The notes beneath the pieces were generated by a model. That model saw only the letters and a program-made list of their open reading frames with translations. It made no database searches and was not told where the DNA came from. 64,000 nucleotides of DNA from Crocinitomicaceae bacterium. Lineage in GTDB: Bacteria > Bacteroidota > Bacteroidia > Flavobacteriales_G > Salibacteraceae. Where the stretch lies: assembly GCA_002713215.1 (NCBI GenBank), contig PAVO01000005.1, positions 1 through 64,000 of the forward strand. Reading direction: 5' to 3'. Below, in pieces: positions 13,126-25,996 of this stretch (position 1 is the stretch's first letter; every line of letters starts with the position of its first letter). Made by a program: the position numbers and the translations under genes.

Positions 13126-14157
13126 TTACATCATTAATCCCTCTTGGGGTTGAATGGGTTTAGGAATGTTTTCTTCATTGATCATCTCCAGCAAGTCTAT
13201 TTCAATGGTTCTACAGATTGAAAGCATAGGTACGTCATTAGGGAGCCCCTCAAAAGGGTTCTCGCTGTAGTCACCAATTAATTCCATAAGAACAAAAACC
13301 CACCCAACCAGAGTTACAAATGGTACGGTAAGCCAAATGAGTTCTTCGGCCAGCTTTTCGAACTCCGTAACCATACCAAAGGGGAGTAAAAAAATAAAAA
13401 TACCAATGAAATAGATACTGCCGGTGGCATATTGCCTTGGGAAGGGGAACTTCTTAATTCGCTCACACTTGCCTTGTTCGGCGTATTGATTGTTCAGTAA
13501 ATTCTGAAGTTGAACGTGTCGGTAATCACTTATAAGTCCTCTTTTTCGAAGTTTCAGCAATTCTCCCGAGTTAATATCTAACAACTGGGTAGCAGCGTTA
13601 GCCCTTCTGTTTTTTATCTGCTCTTCTGTTAAATCAAATTGTTTTAGAATTTCAATAATGTCATCATGCCCAAAGAGTTTTTTAATCCGTGCTTGCCTTC
13701 GGTTATTGATCCAACCAACTCCTCTCTTAATTTGAGAATGTTCCCATCCTTCAGGCCTCAGCAATTGAGCTCGTAATACATAGAGCCAAGCAATGTGCTT
13801 CCGAATTAAATTACGTTGAATGCTTTTTAATTCATCCTTATCTACCTTTTTTTCAGCGTCAAGATCGTTTACAAAGTTTTTGACCGAAGAACCCCACATT
13901 CTGCTGGTATTTACAATGGCCCCCCATATTTTTCGAGCTTCCCAAAGTCGATCATAGGAGGAATCCGTTTTAAAACCTACAAAGAAAGAGACGGCGATAC
14001 CTATTACAGATACCGGAAGCCATGGAATGCTCACCCAATGAAGATTAAAGTGAACGTATAACGAAACGGCAAAAGTCCCCCAAACGGTTAGCCATACAAT
14101 ATGTATCCAGGTAAATTTCAGGAGGCTAATCCAGGAAATATTCTTTCTTACGTACAT
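13126..14157 (-). CDS. Bestrophin-family anion channel, paralogue 1
   Basis: 343 residues from the ATG at 14157. An in-frame ATG 27 codons upstream would add an extension that aligns with nothing in the second bestrophin of the window, which begins MYTQSKYSA where this one begins MYVRKNISW. Four hydrophobic segments are visible in family order. Conserved blocks include SYDRLWEARKIWG, IVNTSR and the C-terminal NPFEGLPNDVPM, which corresponds to the acidic clasp of bestrophins. Bacterial bestrophins form pentameric ion channels in the inner membrane. It is divergent from the MFS gene. Confidence 0.8.
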   Translation of the reverse strand: MYVRKNISWISLLKFTWIHIVWLTVWGTFAVSLYVHFNLHWVSIPWLPVSVIGIAVSFFVGFKTDSSYDRLWEARKIWGAIVNTSRMWGSSVKNFVNDLDAEKKVDKDELKSIQRNLIRKHIAWLYVLRAQLLRPEGWEHSQIKRGVGWINNRRQARIKKLFGHDDIIEILKQFDLTEEQIKNRRANAATQLLDINSGELLKLRKRGLISDYRHVQLQNLLNNQYAEQGKCERIKKFPFPRQYATGSIYFIGIFIFLLPFGMVTEFEKLAEELIWLTVPFVTLVGWVFVLMELIGDYSENPFEGLPNDVPMLSICRTIEIDLLEMINEENIPKPIQPQEGLMM

Positions 14158-14263
14158 CCAATTTTGTTTACAACAAATTAAATCGATTTTTACTGAATTA
14201 AGCCCCTGTATCCGTAAATCTTGTTTTCTTCGCAGCACAAACTAAAAAAGAGGAATTCACTTA

Positions 14264-15625: not shown

Positions 15626-17371
15626 ATGAAAAAGTTATTGATAGGAGTAGGTGTGCTTTTGCTATTGAGCTTAAGTGCAGAAGCAAGTAAAAAGGTCATA
15701 AAGATGTCGGTTTATTTTGAAACCGATAAACATGAACTGAACGATCGGTTTATTAATGAACTGAAGCACTTTGTCCAGGAGAATACAAAGGGAAAAGATT
15801 TTGAACTGCTTGTACAAGGACACGCAGACCACCGAGGAGATTTAGCATACAATGATGCTCTTTCTCTACGAAGAGCCAACACTGTCAAGAACTTTATTGG
15901 GGAACAGGGAATTTCGAAAAACTTAATTGAGTTGTCTTTTTATGGTGAACGAAACCCAAAGAATCATTCAAAGTCCAGTCAACATTTATCACAAAACAGG
16001 CGGGTAGATGTTATCCTTAATATCTACGAATTTGAAACCCTTGAAGAAATTCAAGACGCATTAAAGGAGAATAGTGTTTCTAGTTTTGAGCTGGACCCCA
16101 GGCAAGAAGTACTTTTAAAAGCAAACAATGGGAGTAGGGTTTATATTCAGCCCAACAGTTTTGTCGATCAAAATGGAAATTTGGTTAATGAGAGGGTAAC
16201 CGTAGAAATTAGCGAGGCCATTAAAACAGAAGAGTGGGTTGCCAATAACCTTTCAACAAAGACCAATGGTGAATTGCTTGAAAGCGGTGGAATGTTGAAA
16301 ATAAGTGCGATAACTGAATCGGGGACCCGGGTTAATATTGATCCTAATAAACCGATATTGGTATCGATACCCAAGAGAAGCAATGGAAGAGATCAAAGAA
16401 TGGAAATGTTTACGAGCAATGCTGGAAACATATGGGCACCAATTGGGGAGCGACCGCTCAATTTATCAGGAGTTGAAATGCGAGAGGTTCCTAAACGAAG
16501 ATATGCCAATTTAAATTACCCAAAATACAAAGTTGATCAGAGTTCTGCTCCAAAGCGGCCCAAGCGCCCCAATCAACCCAGTGAACCACATGTTCCGCCT
16601 GAAATTGATGTGCATTGGAACGTACATTGGTATACCATTTTCAAACAAAAAAAGGTAGATAAGAACGTAGCCGAATACAACAATCAACTGGAGAAGTACT
16701 ACAATAGGCTGGAGCGATATAAGCGAAATCATCGCCGTTATAGATTAGCTGAGTTAGAATATGAAAAGAAACTCAGGAAATACGAGAGTGATTTAAAGCT
16801 CTGGAATGCCAAGGTGAAGTGGGAAAGAGAAATGTGGTACAGCACACCTGAGTTTAAGGCTGCAAAACACATCCACGACTCAACTGATAATGTTTATGCA
16901 ATGGCCTATAGAAAACAGATAGCCAAATGGAAAGAAGAACGACTTGAGAAAATAGAATCCCTGGCAGGCAAAATGGATGACCTGGGATTGACCAATAATG
17001 ATGCATTGAATACCTATGTTTTTACCATGAACGAATTAAGCTGGATCAATGTGGATCGATTTATGAAATATCCGGCAAATCAGAAGAGAGACGTAATTAT
17101 TGCGGACAACGATACTACGCGAAAGAAGGTTATGTTGGTTTTTAAAGACATGAATAGCACCTTGCAGTTGGCTAAGAATAACAATCATTATTATAAAAAT
17201 GAACTCCCCAAAAACCAGAAAATATATGTGTTTGCTTTTAAAGTAAAAGATGGTAAACCCCAGGTATTCTTAAAACCTTTAGAATCTGAAGTACGTGAAG
17301 TTAAACTCAATTTCCGCCCCAGTTCATTCGCCGAAATCAAGAAAATTTTGGCTGACTTTGATCGAGGGTAA
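15626..17371 (+). CDS. OmpA-domain envelope protein with ZU5-like middle domain and shared C-terminal domain
   Basis: 581 residues with a signal peptide ending near SAEA-S. An OmpA C-terminal peptidoglycan-binding domain comes first (about 30-137; GHADHRGD, LSLRRA, NRRVDV). Next is a beta-rich domain (about 160-285) that starts with VYIQPNSFVDQNG and contains NGELLESGGM. A Tyr/Arg/Lys-rich coiled-coil region follows (about 320-440). The C-terminal domain (about 460-581) contains INVDRF and RDVIIAD. Both the middle and C-terminal domains recur in the lipoprotein at 23469-24932. Having the OmpA domain at the N-terminus is unusual. It ends 2 bp before the convergent DUF2490 gene. Likely an outer-membrane-to-wall linking protein; exact role unknown. 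Confidence 0.7.
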   Translation: MKKLLIGVGVLLLLSLSAEASKKVIKMSVYFETDKHELNDRFINELKHFVQENTKGKDFELLVQGHADHRGDLAYNDALSLRRANTVKNFIGEQGISKNLIELSFYGERNPKNHSKSSQHLSQNRRVDVILNIYEFETLEEIQDALKENSVSSFELDPRQEVLLKANNGSRVYIQPNSFVDQNGNLVNERVTVEISEAIKTEEWVANNLSTKTNGELLESGGMLKISAITESGTRVNIDPNKPILVSIPKRSNGRDQRMEMFTSNAGNIWAPIGERPLNLSGVEMREVPKRRYANLNYPKYKVDQSSAPKRPKRPNQPSEPHVPPEIDVHWNVHWYTIFKQKKVDKNVAEYNNQLEKYYNRLERYKRNHRRYRLAELEYEKKLRKYESDLKLWNAKVKWEREMWYSTPEFKAAKHIHDSTDNVYAMAYRKQIAKWKEERLEKIESLAGKMDDLGLTNNDALNTYVFTMNELSWINVDRFMKYPANQKRDVIIADNDTTRKKVMLVFKDMNSTLQLAKNNNHYYKNELPKNQKIYVFAFKVKDGKPQVFLKPLESEVREVKLNFRPSSFAEIKKILADFDRG

Positions 17372-17373
17372 TG

Positions 17374-18000
17374 TTAGAACTTGAAGTTATACATAGTCCC
17401 AAAAACAAATCGATGTTCGGGAGCCTCAACATTTTGTTCAAACTCGTATCGATAAAACACATTAAAAAAGTGTCCCAACGCAACCCGAAATCTGGTTCCT
17501 GCAGTGTATCGTTGCATGTCCCAGGTCTGCAAGTTAAATCTGCTTGAGTAGAAGTATTCGGCTTTTCCATATACGTTAAGCCGTTTACTGAACTTGTGGG
17601 TGTATGCAAATCTAAACCGGATACGATCTTCCAAAGTTGTGTTAAGTCCAAATTCCCGCTGAAGCCGAACCCTTAGCTCCATAGTTTCCTTATCAACGGA
17701 ATGCCTTAAGAAATTATCCAAATCAATTCTATTGGTGTTTGTGATTCCCCAATCAGAAAACCGGTAGTTTAGTCCAACTTTATAATATTTGGTGGGTTTG
17801 TATTGTAATCGGGTTTGAATCAAATAGCGATAGAGGTTAGTGGCATTTTGGTCGAAACGAGCTTGTGTACCAACATTCACAATATACTTCTTATCAAAAG
17901 TTTTGGTTGCATTAGCACCTACCCACAATCGAAAATCCTTGCTTTGTGAGTTAGCAAGTATGGGAATACTAATTAGTGATATGATTATAAGTCTTTTCAA
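17374..18000 (-). CDS. DUF2490-type outer-membrane beta-barrel protein
   Basis: 208 residues with a signal peptide ending near ANSQ, then alternating beta strands rich in Tyr and Arg (NYRFSDWG, RIRFRFAY, VFYRYEFE), ending with a Phe as outer-membrane barrels do. This matches DUF2490 proteins. It is the last gene of a five-gene operon, 5 bp after the DUF4956 gene. An outer-membrane pore or structural barrel serving the product of this operon is plausible but unproven. Confidence 0.65.
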   Translation of the reverse strand: MKRLIIISLISIPILANSQSKDFRLWVGANATKTFDKKYIVNVGTQARFDQNATNLYRYLIQTRLQYKPTKYYKVGLNYRFSDWGITNTNRIDLDNFLRHSVDKETMELRVRLQREFGLNTTLEDRIRFRFAYTHKFSKRLNVYGKAEYFYSSRFNLQTWDMQRYTAGTRFRVALGHFFNVFYRYEFEQNVEAPEHRFVFGTMYNFKF

Positions 18001-18005
18001 ATGAA

Positions 18006-18653
18006 TTATTTTGTTCTTTTATAATAGATCATAATTTTAGCCGAGTCCCTCAAAAAGTCTGCTTCCAGTATGTCATAGCGTTCTATGGTGGTGCCAATTC
18101 TTTCTTCCAGGTCTGCTTTTAACGCATTGGCATTTTCCGGTTTAATGTTTTCTACTTTTTCGTAATGAATCAATTGGGTAATTATTTCCGAACCAAATAA
18201 AAACCGTTCGAGGAAGAATGTAAGTCCAAGGATAGCAACATTGGTAAAAATGAGCTCGGCGTAACTAATTTTCTTGGTGCTAATGGCATTGATTACAGCC
18301 ACGGCTATTATAATGAACATATAGCTCATTTCTTTTACCGGAATAGTAGTAGTACGGTACCTAAGAATGGAAAAAACGGCAAACAATCCAAATGCAAAGC
18401 CTATGCTCAATTTGGTAGAAGCAAACATGTGGCAGATAAAGAACACCACAGGGCTAAAAATCAAGTAAGTAAAGAGGTATTCACTATCCTTTTTTGTTGC
18501 GTTAAATACTTTAAGAATAATGGTGTAGGAGATAAGGATATTAAAAGCAAACCTTACCAGTAACTCCAAAAAATCCTTATCATAAAATTTAATGTCGAAT
18601 AGTCTGGCCTTGGCTAAAACCATAAGGGTTATATCATTAAGCAGCAATTCCAT
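18006..18653 (-). CDS. DUF4956 integral membrane protein
   Basis: 215 residues with about four to five hydrophobic segments in the first 150 residues, including FLLVRFAFN-like and GFAFGLFAVFSILRYRTTTIPVKEM, the best-conserved block of DUF4956. The C-terminal ~50 residues form a soluble alpha/beta tail with NANALKADLEERIG. It overlaps the upstream VTC-domain gene by 17 bp, which indicates translational coupling. DUF4956 and VTC genes are regularly adjacent in bacteria, so the two proteins probably act together at the inner membrane. Confidence 0.8.
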   Translation of the reverse strand: MELLLNDITLMVLAKARLFDIKFYDKDFLELLVRFAFNILISYTIILKVFNATKKDSEYLFTYLIFSPVVFFICHMFASTKLSIGFAFGLFAVFSILRYRTTTIPVKEMSYMFIIIAVAVINAISTKKISYAELIFTNVAILGLTFFLERFLFGSEIITQLIHYEKVENIKPENANALKADLEERIGTTIERYDILEADFLRDSAKIMIYYKRTK

Positions 18654-19407
18654 TCTCTAATCTTATTTTTTCAAGTTTTGTAACAATGGGTTTAAATCGG
18701 TTTCTCTTTAATTGACCCTGATAGTGCATTACCGTGGCACAGTACTTTGAAAAGGAGTGGGGGTGAATCTTTAATTCTTTTAATGCCGTAACAAAAACGC
18801 TATTATAAGAAAATCGCTCTTGTTTTACCTCGGCGATAACCAAATTTTCAAACCTATGCTCCTCATTGTTTACAGACCCGGTTAAATTAAGGTCCAATGT
18901 AAACTTCTCTGTCATTTCCTTATTAGCAAAGGTCATTCTCTGATAATTCACATCTGATTTCATAGGAAGTTGATCAAATCCATAACCCAGCCTTTCTTTT
19001 AAAAACTGGTCGGTTAATTCACTTTCAATGTTGTCGAAAGAGGGGAGGCTGACCCGATCTTTAATCGTTAGGCCTTTATTGGACTTTGTTTTGATCTCGA
19101 ACACGAAAGGGCCTTGCTCACTGTATTCCCTTGCACGAATTTTAATTCGATTGAGGTAGCCTGCGTGGTGTTGACGAAAGAACTCAAAGTTGGCCGTATC
19201 GAAGTACACATTTTTATAATCAAAAATGGCATTACCTCCCAGGTTAAGAATTACGACATGGTCTTTAATTCGATTTAGAAATTGCGCCAATTTATTTGCA
19301 TGGAAAATGTACTTGGTATCAATTCTACCATCAAAATCAACCGATGCAAGTTGCTCCAGGCCAATGCCTGAAACAGAATTAATTATAGGGAGTGCAGTTT
19401 CCTTCAA
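18637..19407 (-). CDS. VTC-domain (polyphosphate polymerase-like, CYTH/TTM fold) protein
   Basis: 256 residues, no signal peptide. Tunnel residues of VTC/triphosphate tunnel enzymes are visible: DTKYIF (30-35), YFDT (68-71), RIKIRAREY (87-95), EIKTKSNKG (104-112), an acidic LDLNL and VIAEVKQE near residue 195. In yeast the VTC domain polymerizes ATP phosphate into polyphosphate. In bacteria the domain is mostly found with DUF4956 and CotH/lamin-tail proteins, where the real activity is uncertain. Its neighbours here are the lamin-tail protein, a carbohydrate-binding-like lipoprotein, DUF4956 and DUF2490. Confidence 0.8.
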   Translation of the reverse strand: MKETALPIINSVSGIGLEQLASVDFDGRIDTKYIFHANKLAQFLNRIKDHVVILNLGGNAIFDYKNVYFDTANFEFFRQHHAGYLNRIKIRAREYSEQGPFVFEIKTKSNKGLTIKDRVSLPSFDNIESELTDQFLKERLGYGFDQLPMKSDVNYQRMTFANKEMTEKFTLDLNLTGSVNNEEHRFENLVIAEVKQERFSYNSVFVTALKELKIHPHSFSKYCATVMHYQGQLKRNRFKPIVTKLEKIRLENGIAA

Positions 19408-19414
19408 ATCGAAC

Positions 19415-20164
19415 CTATTTGATAACTACTACCTCCAGTTTAGGTATGTTTACTTCTGTGCTCGACGCTGTTACCTCAAAGTCAACATATACAGGCTCTA
19501 TTCCGTTGGCACAGTATAAACAGTCGGAGTAGGCAAAAGCCCGGTATTTACCTGGTCTCAATTCCGTAAAATGATAAGACCCATCAGAACTTGACCGAAC
19601 GTCATCACTGCTTGTGGTACCTTCTCCATAAACCAGGTATACCCGTTGGTTTAGTAGTTGTCCAATACTAAGGGTATCTCCGTTATTGCCATTTATAAAT
19701 ATAGCGCCCAGGTTTCCTTTAGCCGTAGCTACACCTCCTTTTCCCGAGCCTTCACAATACCTATTGCCGTACAAGTCAATCTTCAACTCTCCAACACTTA
19801 CATTTCTATCTTTCTTACCTATTTCAACAGATTTTGATACTTCACGAAATCCTGTGGAACAAGTATCACACTCGGATAGGATAGATACACGATACGTACC
19901 AGGGTTAAGGTATTTAAATTCAAATTCACCGTTTGTTCCGGTTCTCATGTCGTCGTCGTAATAGGTTCCGCCACCATAAGAAATAAAAATACGTTCACCC
20001 GGTGCTCCGGATATTGCTCGAATGGATCCGTTTTCTCCACAGTAGAATGTGGCCACAACAGCTCCTTTAAGTGTGGATTTTCCACCCTTTCCTGCCTCCT
20101 TTTTACAGGAGAAAAAGAGCATTGAAACCATAATTGAAGCACTAATAATAATCGTCTTTTTCAT
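19415..20164 (-). CDS. Lipoprotein with two tandem Cys-pair beta-sandwich repeats
   Basis: 249 residues. It has a signal peptide with lipobox FFSC, so lipid-anchored. The mature protein is a duplication. Each half has a VYLVYGEGTTSSDD-type block (FISYGGGTYYDDD in repeat 1), an SDGSYHF / TNGEFEF block, a PGTYR or PGKYR block and a CxxC-type pair (CDTCSTG and CLYCANG). The PGxY layout resembles SdrD B/prealbumin-like domains. The duplicated Cys pairs could form disulfides or bind metal. Second gene of the VTC operon, 7 bp before the VTC gene. Function unknown. Confidence 0.55.
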   Translation of the reverse strand: MKKTIIISASIMVSMLFFSCKKEAGKGGKSTLKGAVVATFYCGENGSIRAISGAPGERIFISYGGGTYYDDDMRTGTNGEFEFKYLNPGTYRVSILSECDTCSTGFREVSKSVEIGKKDRNVSVGELKIDLYGNRYCEGSGKGGVATAKGNLGAIFINGNNGDTLSIGQLLNQRVYLVYGEGTTSSDDVRSSSDGSYHFTELRPGKYRAFAYSDCLYCANGIEPVYVDFEVTASSTEVNIPKLEVVVIK

Positions 20165-20201
20165 ACTAGTTGTTTAATATCGTTTTGTATTAACTGCTGG
20201 A

Positions 20202-20939
20202 CTATTGCTTAACAATTTTATAAATATTCTTTCCTATTTGTAATTCATATTTCCCTGGTTCCAGTCCGCCCAGGTCTATCATACCGGTTTGATCTTCAAT
20301 CTTAGAACGATGGAATACCTGATCCTTGCTATTTCGAAGTATCACCCTTACCATTTCACCGGTATCGTTGTATACTACAAAGCCTGATTTCTCCGCATTT
20401 ACATGCAATTTAATCTTTTGCTTATTGGCCTTGGTATAATCAAATCCAAGAACCTGAGTAGAAAGGTTTTTCTTACCGATGGATACATTCATGTACCTTT
20501 TTTCAGTACCACCGTCAGGAAACAATCCATAGCTTATGTCTCGATATTGCCTTTTGAATTTTAGTTTATGAATAAGGTTCCCCTGCTTGTCTGATAAGTA
20601 AAGGGTTTCTCCTTTTGAACTTAGCTTGAAATTAGTGTGAAAACCTCCCTTATTTGGTTGGTTATCGGCCAGTACCAACAAAAAACCTTTGCTTTTGATA
20701 ATCACATTTTTTGGGATGGCCCATTTGCTTAGCATGGTTTTGTCATCGGAGAGGAAATATCCGCCAACATTCATATTCTCCGAACTTCCATTGTAGATCT
20801 CAATCCAATCCTCGTACTTACCTTCCTGGTTTTTTACCGCCGTTTTATTTACAGCAAGAACCTCATTAATAAAAAGGGATTGGCCGATTCCACTTACCGA
20901 ATAAAAGCCAATGGTTAGAGCAACAATAATCTTTTTCAT
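20202..20939 (-). CDS. Secreted lamin-tail-domain (LTD) protein
   Basis: 245 residues with a signal peptide ending near GIGQ. The mature N-terminus FINEVLAVN, then EDWIEIYNGS, GGYFLSDD and WAIP are classic for the lamin tail domain (about 22-140), an Ig-like fold used extracellularly in bacteria. The C-terminal ~90 residues form a small beta domain ending in LEPGKYELQIG. In many bacteria LTD proteins next to VTC/DUF4956 genes also carry a CotH kinase domain, which is missing here. First gene of the five-gene operon. Confidence 0.75.
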   Translation of the reverse strand: MKKIIVALTIGFYSVSGIGQSLFINEVLAVNKTAVKNQEGKYEDWIEIYNGSSENMNVGGYFLSDDKTMLSKWAIPKNVIIKSKGFLLVLADNQPNKGGFHTNFKLSSKGETLYLSDKQGNLIHKLKFKRQYRDISYGLFPDGGTEKRYMNVSIGKKNLSTQVLGFDYTKANKQKIKLHVNAEKSGFVVYNDTGEMVRVILRNSKDQVFHRSKIEDQTGMIDLGGLEPGKYELQIGKNIYKIVKQ

Positions 20940-23468: not shown

Positions 23469-24932
23469 ATGAATCGCTTTATCATTTTCACCTTCGTACT
23501 TAGTTTTTTGATATTTTCTTGTCAAGAGTCAACCAGTCCAGAAAACCAATCGAGTCGGGAAAACTCAAATAATCAATCTGGAATTAATAATTCAGACACG
23601 CAAAGTCAGAATCAGCCTGAACAGCAAGATTCTTCAAGAGCTTCTATTACAGCTAATGATTGGACCGAATCCTTTGCTAATCATTCCATGACCTACCAAC
23701 CGGTAGACTATTCTTCGTTAAAACCCAAGCGGCAAGTTTTTAAGATTTCTGGTACCAATGACAACATAATAACGACAAAAAACGGGGTCGATTTTTTTGT
23801 TCCTGCCCAATGCTTTATCAACAACAAAGGGGCCGTAGTTAAAGGAGAAGTAGAAATGCAAATTACCGAATACCTTGATCAATTCGATTTGGTTGCTAAC
23901 CGACTCACTACTACTAGTAATGGAGAACCGCTTGAGTCGGAAGGCATGTTCTACATTAGGGCAATTTCTGAAGGTGAGGAGCTTTCGCTTAAACCTTATT
24001 CTGAATTGGTAATGCAATTACCTAGAGAGGTAGATACCAATATGAGGATATATGCTGGTAAAAGAGACCGAAACAACCAACTGAATTGGGAGCGCGACCC
24101 TTATTCTACTCAACCTTATCCCTGCATGGTAACGGTTGGTGGTAAATATGGTGAACTTACCAAAGACTTTTTTGAAAACAATTTTCGATTTTCCAAGAAA
24201 AGCATGCTTAACCTCCTAGACAGCTCAATGGGGTACTCGGTATCGTTTGGTAAAAAGGGATACGTAATAGGTACCCATGTTTGTGATAACAGTTTTAATG
24301 AGGATAGGAATGTGGCCTGCAGTAGGTTTATGGAGCTTGCTGAAGTGTTGAGGGACACATTTCCAGACCAATTAAACAGAAGCATAAAAACGGAGTTTAG
24401 CTTTAAACTTATGCAATATGATAACTATAAGGCCTACCGCGAGGCCAAACGACAAGAACGCCTTGAGTTTGAAGCAAAACTAAAGCATGAGGAAGAAACC
24501 CGTGAGATGCAGCGTACCATAGGTGAAGCTCTTCGTGAAGATAAAGCCATTGAAACTTTTTATAAAAAGAGGAGAAGTTTTTTTATTGGCAACTTGGGGC
24601 CTATTAATATCGACATGAAACTTGCTCCTGAAATTCCCAGGGGCGACGTCATTATTGCTGATGAAGAAAGATGGAAAGATTATCATTTGCTTGTAAAAAA
24701 CAGAAGGGCACTGTTTTTAGCAAATTACTCGGTCAAGGGTAACTACCTTTTTTCCAACCTACCACGCAATAAAAATGTTACACTTATTTCGTCTTACATG
24801 AAAGATGGTCAAATCTATTTTGCCAGTACAAATTTTAAGACCAAACCCAATACTGTGATTTCATCCTCTGATCTAAATTTCAGGCAATTGGCGAGTCTTG
24901 AAGAGCTTAAAGAGGTGATTAATTCGCTCTAA
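23469..24932 (+). CDS. Lipoprotein with ZU5-like domain, related to the OmpA-domain protein at 15626
   Basis: 487 residues. A lipoprotein signal peptide has lipobox LIFSC, followed by a Ser/Asn/Gln-rich linker (about 20-65). The beta domain (about 90-215) has FFVPAQCFINNKG, VEMQITE, NGEPLESEGM and MQLPREVDTNMRIY, colinear with the middle domain of the OmpA protein. A helical Arg/Glu-rich segment (about 315-370) precedes a C-terminal domain with INIDMK, GDVIIADEE and LEELKEV that also matches the OmpA protein. The two are paralogues with swapped anchors, a lipid here and peptidoglycan there. Function unknown; envelope. Confidence 0.65.
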   Translation: MNRFIIFTFVLSFLIFSCQESTSPENQSSRENSNNQSGINNSDTQSQNQPEQQDSSRASITANDWTESFANHSMTYQPVDYSSLKPKRQVFKISGTNDNIITTKNGVDFFVPAQCFINNKGAVVKGEVEMQITEYLDQFDLVANRLTTTSNGEPLESEGMFYIRAISEGEELSLKPYSELVMQLPREVDTNMRIYAGKRDRNNQLNWERDPYSTQPYPCMVTVGGKYGELTKDFFENNFRFSKKSMLNLLDSSMGYSVSFGKKGYVIGTHVCDNSFNEDRNVACSRFMELAEVLRDTFPDQLNRSIKTEFSFKLMQYDNYKAYREAKRQERLEFEAKLKHEEETREMQRTIGEALREDKAIETFYKKRRSFFIGNLGPINIDMKLAPEIPRGDVIIADEERWKDYHLLVKNRRALFLANYSVKGNYLFSNLPRNKNVTLISSYMKDGQIYFASTNFKTKPNTVISSSDLNFRQLASLEELKEVINSL

Positions 24933-24940
24933 GCCCAAAG

Positions 24941-25996
24941 TTAGAACTGGACACCAGCTGGTGCTGGAAATTGTTCAGGAATTTCATCGGGAGATTCTCC
25001 AAGATTCTGTCTTAAATCAATTTCAATTCCCCTTGCGATAGTGGAAATTGGGACATCGTTGGCTGTCCCTTCAAAAGGGTTTTCACCGGTTCTGCCAATC
25101 CGTTCCATGGTATGAAAGATCCAGGACACCGCGACGTAAAAAGGAATGGATAACCAAATAAAATATGTGCTGATCATGGGATAGCTCTCACTCATATTGT
25201 TGCCAAGTTCTGAAAACTGAGGCACCATAGCCAGGGGGAGCATGAGCAAAAATATCCACATAAAAAAATGATTCAGTGTCGCAAAGTGCCTGGGGTAGGG
25301 AAAGTTTTTTATTCTTTCGCTTTTGCCTTGTAAGGTAAATAGCTCCTTTACCATACCTTCTAATTCCAGGAATGAAAATTCCCATATAATTCCTCGCTCC
25401 TTAAGCTCTCTTAGATGATGGGATTGCAGATACAAAAGGGCTGTTTGTTTGTTGCCTTTATTCTTAATGTATTGAATATCCTTATCGGAAAGATAGGGAA
25501 GGAGGTCGTTATCGAGGGTAGATTCCTGTTCTGGAGTTTTAATTCCCCATTCCTGGTTGGTACGGTGAGAAGAAGTGGTTTCCCAGGGTTTTAACACGCG
25601 CATGGCGTGTCGTAAAGCGGTCATCCAAGCTATATGCCTGTAGGTAAGTACTTTTATTTCCTTTTGGAGTTCTTCGTCCGACACCGATTGTTTTGCGTAC
25701 TCGTTAGTAACCATGTCCTGAATTGCCATTCCAAAAGTTCTTGACGTATTTACTATGCCGCCCCATATTTTGCGAGCCTCCCAAATTCTACCGTATGAAG
25801 CATTATTCTGGAAGCCGATTACAAAAGCTACCGCCGTACCGATCAATGCTAAAGGTGTCCACGGAATTTGAAGCCAATCTAGGTCTAGAAAATAGAATGC
25901 AGTTGCCCAAGCTGCTCCTATGGCGATAAATGTAAAAGTTTCGAAACGAGTCCAAAGGACCATTGCCTTGGCCGAATATTTACTTTGTGTATACAT
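24941..25996 (-). CDS. Bestrophin-family anion channel, paralogue 2
   Basis: 351 residues with four hydrophobic segments. Conserved blocks SYGRIWEARKIWGGIVNTSR, YRHIAWMTALRHAMR, PYPRHFATLNHFF and NPFEGTANDVPIS are colinear with the bestrophin at 13126-14157, although the sequences differ clearly in the loops. Two bestrophins 11 kb apart indicate an old duplication. It should form a pentameric inner-membrane ion channel. Convergent with the lipoprotein gene, 8 bp apart. Confidence 0.8.
   Translation of the reverse strand: MYTQSKYSAKAMVLWTRFETFTFIAIGAAWATAFYFLDLDWLQIPWTPLALIGTAVAFVIGFQNNASYGRIWEARKIWGGIVNTSRTFGMAIQDMVTNEYAKQSVSDEELQKEIKVLTYRHIAWMTALRHAMRVLKPWETTSSHRTNQEWGIKTPEQESTLDNDLLPYLSDKDIQYIKNKGNKQTALLYLQSHHLRELKERGIIWEFSFLELEGMVKELFTLQGKSERIKNFPYPRHFATLNHFFMWIFLLMLPLAMVPQFSELGNNMSESYPMISTYFIWLSIPFYVAVSWIFHTMERIGRTGENPFEGTANDVPISTIARGIEIDLRQNLGESPDEIPEQFPAPAGVQF

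Follow-up and report, generated by a model that had tools for sequence, protein, structure and literature searches.

Among the closest described counterparts of the system treated here is the yeast VTC complex, in which basic residues lie along the path from the enzyme to the channel and which is inactivated by the triple replacement R264A/R266A/E426N (PMC9911596). VTC, DUF4956 and CotH genes have earlier been found associated in Gram-positive pel operons, as accessory genes in the arrangement CotH-polyphosphate polymerase-DUF4956(-DUF4832) without an assigned function (PMC7112168), and in NELoc-2 of Clostridium perfringens proteins with a polyphosphate-polymerase domain are annotated together with CotH (PMC11677781). 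Beyond these two papers nothing relevant on VTC together with CotH was found. Bacterial VTC proteins go by the annotation of polyphosphate polymerase; the open-access literature searched yielded no study of their function. As to other parts of the system, adjacent DUF4956 and DUF2490 genes are annotated in Bacteroides thetaiotaomicron (BT3498-BT3499; PMC10434189), and the KdgM/NanC porins form a class that handles acidic sugars (PMC4849052). Here we analyse a five-gene VTC operon at positions 17374-20939 of a 64,000-nucleotide stretch of DNA (the window; contig PAVO01000005.1) from a Crocinitomicaceae bacterium of the Bacteroidota. Our best explanation, which we put forward tentatively, is that this operon represents the VTC-DUF4956-CotH module in its Bacteroidota form and serves as a line for the synthesis and export of a phosphate polymer. 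No paper on the Bacteroidota operon, on its genome-level link to CotH or on the DUF2490 subtype described below was found in the open-access literature.

All five genes are co-directional and are given here in their order on the minus strand:

20202..20939, minus strand: LTD protein, 245 amino acids, with a signal peptide and a lamin-tail domain (Pfam LTD, 2e-13)
19415..20164, minus strand: lipoprotein, 249 amino acids, with lipobox Cys20 and two CarboxypepD_reg copies (Pfam, 9.8e-10)
18637..19407, minus strand: VTC-domain protein, 256 amino acids, TTG start, predicted cytoplasmic polyphosphate-type polymerase (Pfam VTC, 7.1e-23)
18006..18653, minus strand: DUF4956 membrane protein, 215 amino acids, five predicted membrane helices (Pfam DUF4956, 7.7e-44)
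17374..18000, minus strand: DUF2490 outer-membrane beta-barrel, predicted, 208 amino acids, TTG start (Pfam DUF2490, 2.3e-16)

For all five proteins the Pfam matches exceed the curated cut-offs. The genes are tightly packed and lie where the earlier note on this DNA had placed them. Their junctions measure 37, 7, -17 and 5 nucleotides, in the order above, and the VTC reading frame overlaps that of DUF4956 by 17 nucleotides. The start sites of VTC and DUF2490 are uncertain because the mechanical list of open reading frames gives TTG starts for both. A scan for promoters and terminators returned no more sites than were found in shuffled sequence.

The VTC domain scores 81.8 bits against a Pfam cut-off of 23. 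Nine residues of the protein (K32, R91, R93, E104, K106, K116, R157, E193 and K221) are invariant in 42 VTC sequences, and the first six align with K200, R264, R266, E279, K281 and K294 of Vtc4. The last three, R157, E193 and K221, we take to be R361, E426 and K458 in the yeast numbering. The invariant positions thereby coincide with residues of the Vtc4 tunnel. The residues R264, R266 and E426, whose joint replacement inactivates the yeast complex, correspond to R91, R93 and E193 of the window protein. When a profile of the 42 homologues was searched against the PDB only Vtc subunits were matched, with Vtc4 as the best (1.7e-14). The predicted structure (predicted local distance difference test, pLDDT, 94) found 3g3r/3g3q (Vtc4) as its best Foldseek match (E 1.3e-11, template-modelling score 0.61); the top fold matches were Vtc4 with an ATP analogue and Vtc4 with a phosphate polymer, followed at lower scores by triphosphatases of the same superfamily. 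Because the protein keeps all Vtc4 catalytic residues and its model matches Vtc4 best, it is likely an active polyphosphate-type polymerase, and the residue check that had been proposed for polyphosphate synthesis thus speaks for such an enzyme. Neither SPX nor DUF202, the Vtc1-type membrane domain, was matched in any of the five proteins.

To place the operon among its relatives, VTC homologues were sought in 80 relatives and in 296 genomes of the phylum. A set of 80 loci and the window were annotated with profiles built from the window proteins, the CotH profile covering the kinase domain alone; a second set consisted of 79 named DUF4956 loci, and some loci are common to both sets. In the first set VTC was detected in 80 loci and DUF4956 in 77, and the 79 VTC operons contain DUF2490 in 36, the lipoprotein in 26, the LTD protein in 25 and CotH in 27 cases. 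The survey of VTC-DUF4956 neighbourhoods that the earlier note had suggested comes out positive in the second set as well, where VTC accompanies DUF4956 in 69 loci, DUF2490 in 56, the lipoprotein in 33, CotH in 19 and the LTD protein in 7. The commonest order is [CotH-LTD-sorting domain] > lipoprotein > VTC > DUF4956 > DUF2490 [> CotH], with overlapping genes in 86 of 135 close VTC>DUF4956 pairs, 19 of 32 lipoprotein>VTC pairs and 41 of 71 DUF4956>DUF2490 pairs. This order is far beyond chance, because it recurs in the related genomes, of which G038 and G040 have the gene order of the window, and in the independent set of named loci. The operon is conserved and widespread in Bacteroidota, and the recurring order and overlaps bear out the view that it is one conserved transcription unit reaching from the cytoplasm to the surface.

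The genome itself encodes three CotH genes, at C53, C21 and C5:239738, and none in 17374-20939. The absence of CotH stated earlier therefore holds for the operon but not for the organism, and of the evidence that had been named as counting against the earlier reading, a co-regulated CotH gene elsewhere, the location elsewhere was found, for three genes. In a tree of 41 CotH domains the contig-53 gene falls into a clade (support 1.000) whose other genes come from four related genomes and adjoin the VTC operon there; the contig-21 gene groups with the in-operon CotH-LTD gene of locus L017 (support 1.000). CotH was probably relocated, in one direction or the other, rather than lost.

CotH is present in 37/37 VTC-positive compared with 11/43 VTC-negative relatives (Fisher p 2.7e-13), and in 47/48 VTC-positive compared with 60/248 VTC-negative genomes of the phylum (Fisher p 1.8e-23); a sub-threshold VTC fragment in G021 was counted as VTC-negative. 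The idea of a system that works without CotH finds no support in these counts or in the tree. PPK1, taken as a control, occurs in 23/37 VTC-positive and 34/43 VTC-negative relatives and shows no positive link; since this control is not enriched, genome size was rejected as the cause of the VTC-CotH link. With a tie that is nearly fixed at the genome level even where the genes lie apart, the puzzle of the phosphate donor of an extracellular kinase becomes directly testable.

None of the 37 VTC-positive relatives lacks DUF4956, which also occurs in six relatives without a VTC match (G020, G045, G053, G054, G061 and G068); it may act independently of VTC, or VTC was missed in those six genomes. 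Its model (pLDDT 79) predicts five helices in the membrane and, on the cytoplasmic side, a beta-alpha-beta-beta domain. Among 50 sequences R98 and R100 do not vary, R185 is nearly invariant, and the predicted topology would put R98 and R100 at the cytoplasmic face. By analogy with the yeast complex, where the polymer's route between enzyme and channel is flanked by basic residues, a similar role of R98 and R100 is plausible. A comparison with the MgtC profile in hhalign gave a weak match (prob 31%, P 5e-4; controls below 0.5%), and we treat the MgtC-like similarity as a lead only.

The DUF2490 protein of the window begins with a signal-like N-terminal sequence. The DUF2490 profile retrieved outer-membrane barrels from the PDB, with the oligogalacturonate porin KdgM as the best match (E 0.0012), and by these matches the protein is an outer-membrane barrel. 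With the KdgM family profile the window protein gave no match at E 0.1, and 6/26 operon copies matched weakly (best 8.7e-4). Among these 26 operon copies R48, R80, R91, R110 and R128 are invariant and R164 is nearly invariant. R80 was found in 26/26 operon copies, in 5/5 copies beside CotH away from VTC and in 0/26 unlinked copies. Because it is kept in operon and CotH-adjoining copies and missing from unlinked ones, the sequences define a separate subtype of DUF2490 linked to CotH and VTC, which carries the extra basic positions R80 and R/K130. Its extra conserved arginines would suit an anionic substrate. The arginines as a whole were rejected as operon-specific, as only R80 and the basic residue at 130 are, and a C-terminal Phe was rejected as a barrel signature because it is not general (25/92). 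A second DUF2490 gene of the R80 subtype is present in this genome and overlaps the third, lipoprotein-type CotH gene (L172:6574-8737; contig 5, ~239 kb). Such DUF2490-CotH pairs away from VTC, same-strand or convergent, occur in several relatives too.

The lipoprotein consists of two carboxypeptidase-regulatory/prealbumin-like domains, and in the window copy each half contains CxxC. In most genomes the protein has one such domain; in some, as in the window, it has two. The description as a duplicated lipoprotein with Cys pairs is correct for this copy but does not extend to the family: a CxxC-like pattern is present in 23/61 homologues and double length in 21/61, and the Cys pair was rejected as a defining redox motif since it is found in a minority of homologues. 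GxGG shortly downstream of the lipid-modified Cys is kept in 59/61 homologues; the family alignment comprised 27 sequences. The LTD protein is similar to the LTD-plus-tail half of CotH-LTD-sorting-domain proteins. Its C-terminal ~60 amino acids resemble a degenerate type IX sorting domain (custom profile, 3.6e-4), and the window copy has no Pfam or NCBIfam sorting-domain match; the orthologue in L008 keeps the domain (Pfam 2.1e-8, TIGR04183 5.5e-9).

Compared with the yeast VTC complex, the operon has the catalytic domain family, the active-site residues and the fold of Vtc4 in common, as well as a cytoplasmic polymerase beside a membrane partner whose basic residues are conserved. It differs from it in being without SPX, in having DUF4956 instead of Vtc1-type helices, in the membrane concerned, which is the bacterial inner membrane, and in the added envelope parts. 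The VTC-DUF4956 pair and the association with CotH are shared with the Gram-positive pel accessory genes (PMC7112168), whereas the lipoprotein, DUF2490 barrel and LTD protein take the place of DUF4832 and CotH lies outside the operon here. The PelG exporter had no match in this genome and none above the cut-off in the 80 relatives, and a Pel accessory role of the operon was therefore rejected. BT3498-BT3499 resemble the operon in the adjacent annotation of DUF4956 and DUF2490, but they are known only as entries of an iron-response table that assigns them no function (PMC10434189). With the KdgM/NanC porins DUF2490 shares the barrel and a weak KdgM profile similarity, and its arginines suggest the same class of anionic substrates; however, it is a separate Pfam family.

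According to the explanation we tentatively favour, a phosphate-polymer line, the cytoplasmic VTC protein would use ATP to build polyphosphate or a closely related phosphoanhydride. DUF4956 would take the chain at the cytoplasmic face and move it across the inner membrane, like the helices of the yeast VTC complex. The lipoprotein would hold or direct the polymer in the envelope, and the arginine-rich DUF2490 barrel would bind it or pass it through the outer membrane. Secreted surface CotH kinases and LTD proteins would then draw phosphate from the polymer or else modify the target that it serves; these putative users are operon-encoded in many relatives, and CotH is encoded elsewhere in this genome. 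From sequence and models we strongly infer that the operon synthesizes polyphosphate, and we infer that the polymer would be translocated by DUF4956, pass through DUF2490 and be used by CotH. The full proposal that extracytoplasmic CotH is fed through DUF2490 by polyphosphate exported by VTC-DUF4956, which would be the phosphate donor at a surface where ATP is missing, is in our judgement distinctly unlikely. The envelope-spanning gene set is a first candidate route for a phosphate polymer from the cytoplasm to the surface in Gram-negative bacteria.

Several points weigh against a phosphate-polymer line. An activity measurement for a bacterial VTC-type protein was not found in the open-access literature searched, and the genome also encodes PPK1, an alternative source of polyphosphate. 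For DUF4956 there is no convincing PDB fold match, which does not make the fold new, and no proven channel. The match of DUF2490 to KdgM is weak, and 5/6 of its Arg columns are family-wide, being kept in nearly all 26 copies outside such operons. The Fisher tests on the VTC-CotH counts ignore shared ancestry. The strongest point against polyphosphate as donor is that CotH and DUF2490-CotH pairs also occur in genomes without VTC; therefore CotH does not need VTC.

It is somewhat unlikely that the polyphosphate produced by VTC and moved by DUF4956 is an end in itself, serving storage, metal chelation or periplasmic stress protection, and that the co-occurrence with CotH reflects no more than a shared lifestyle. 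The VTC fold and active site fit this explanation, as does the existence of DUF2490-CotH pairs without VTC, and BT3498-3499 (DUF4956 and DUF2490) are listed, without significance, in the iron-response table (PMC10434189). However, hardly any VTC-positive genome is without CotH, which often lies in the operon (27/79 and 19/79 loci), and the CotH genes of this genome cluster with operon-linked ones. It is unlikely that the operon makes or modifies some anionic surface polymer that is not polyphosphate, such as phosphorylated protein or polysaccharide, in which case VTC would transfer phosphate and DUF2490 would form the exit through the outer membrane. Although pel polysaccharide operons of Gram-positive bacteria have CotH-polyphosphate polymerase-DUF4956 genes alongside (PMC7112168), the distant loci L036 and L044 share a neighbour whose L036 copy is O-antigen-ligase-like (Wzy_C), and DUF2490 is similar to the acidic-oligosaccharide porin KdgM, PelG reached the cut-off in none of the 80 relatives, among which this genome is counted, and a Pfam scan of the window operon revealed no glycosyltransferase among its proteins.

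A different function of VTC as a tunnel metalloenzyme, for instance as a triphosphatase or signalling enzyme, with DUF4956 as a membrane sensor, appears quite improbable. The sequence profile hit no PDB entries other than Vtc subunits, and the protein retains the full set of Vtc4 polymerase residues, against which can be set the same-superfamily triphosphatases among the lower-scoring fold matches and, for DUF4956, the cytoplasmic beta-alpha-beta-beta domain with the weak MgtC-like match. Hardly credible is a chance neighbourhood of five genes without common function: the LTD protein (7/79) and the lipoprotein (33/79 named loci) are indeed variable members, but the same order, the overlapping reading frames and the wide spread found in the survey contradict it.

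Further genes were noted around VTC in other loci. A conserved secreted protein of ~190-206 amino acids with repeated YD-like strands is encoded inside the operon, between or near the lipoprotein and VTC genes, in L031, L033, L035, L039, L045 and L049, and the one copy scanned had no Pfam match. L041, L050 and L066-L082 represent another VTC subfamily with a longer domain, in which a protein of ~350-375 amino acids regularly adjoins VTC-DUF4956; this neighbour forms a cluster of 17 open reading frames, one member of which is weakly HlyD-like. In the window the position adjoining DUF2490 is occupied by an OmpA-like gene (15626-17371). Its product, which has an OmpA domain, resembles that of 23469-24932, which has no Pfam match, in the central region (VEISEAIKTEEWVANNLSTKTNGELLESGGMLKISAITE in the former, VEMQITEYLDQFDLVANRLTTTSNGEPLESEGMFYIRAISE in the latter). 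The genes at 13126-14238 and 24941-25996 encode membrane proteins of similar size, apparent paralogues that both contain WEARKIWGxIVNTSR and ENPFEGxxNDVPx.

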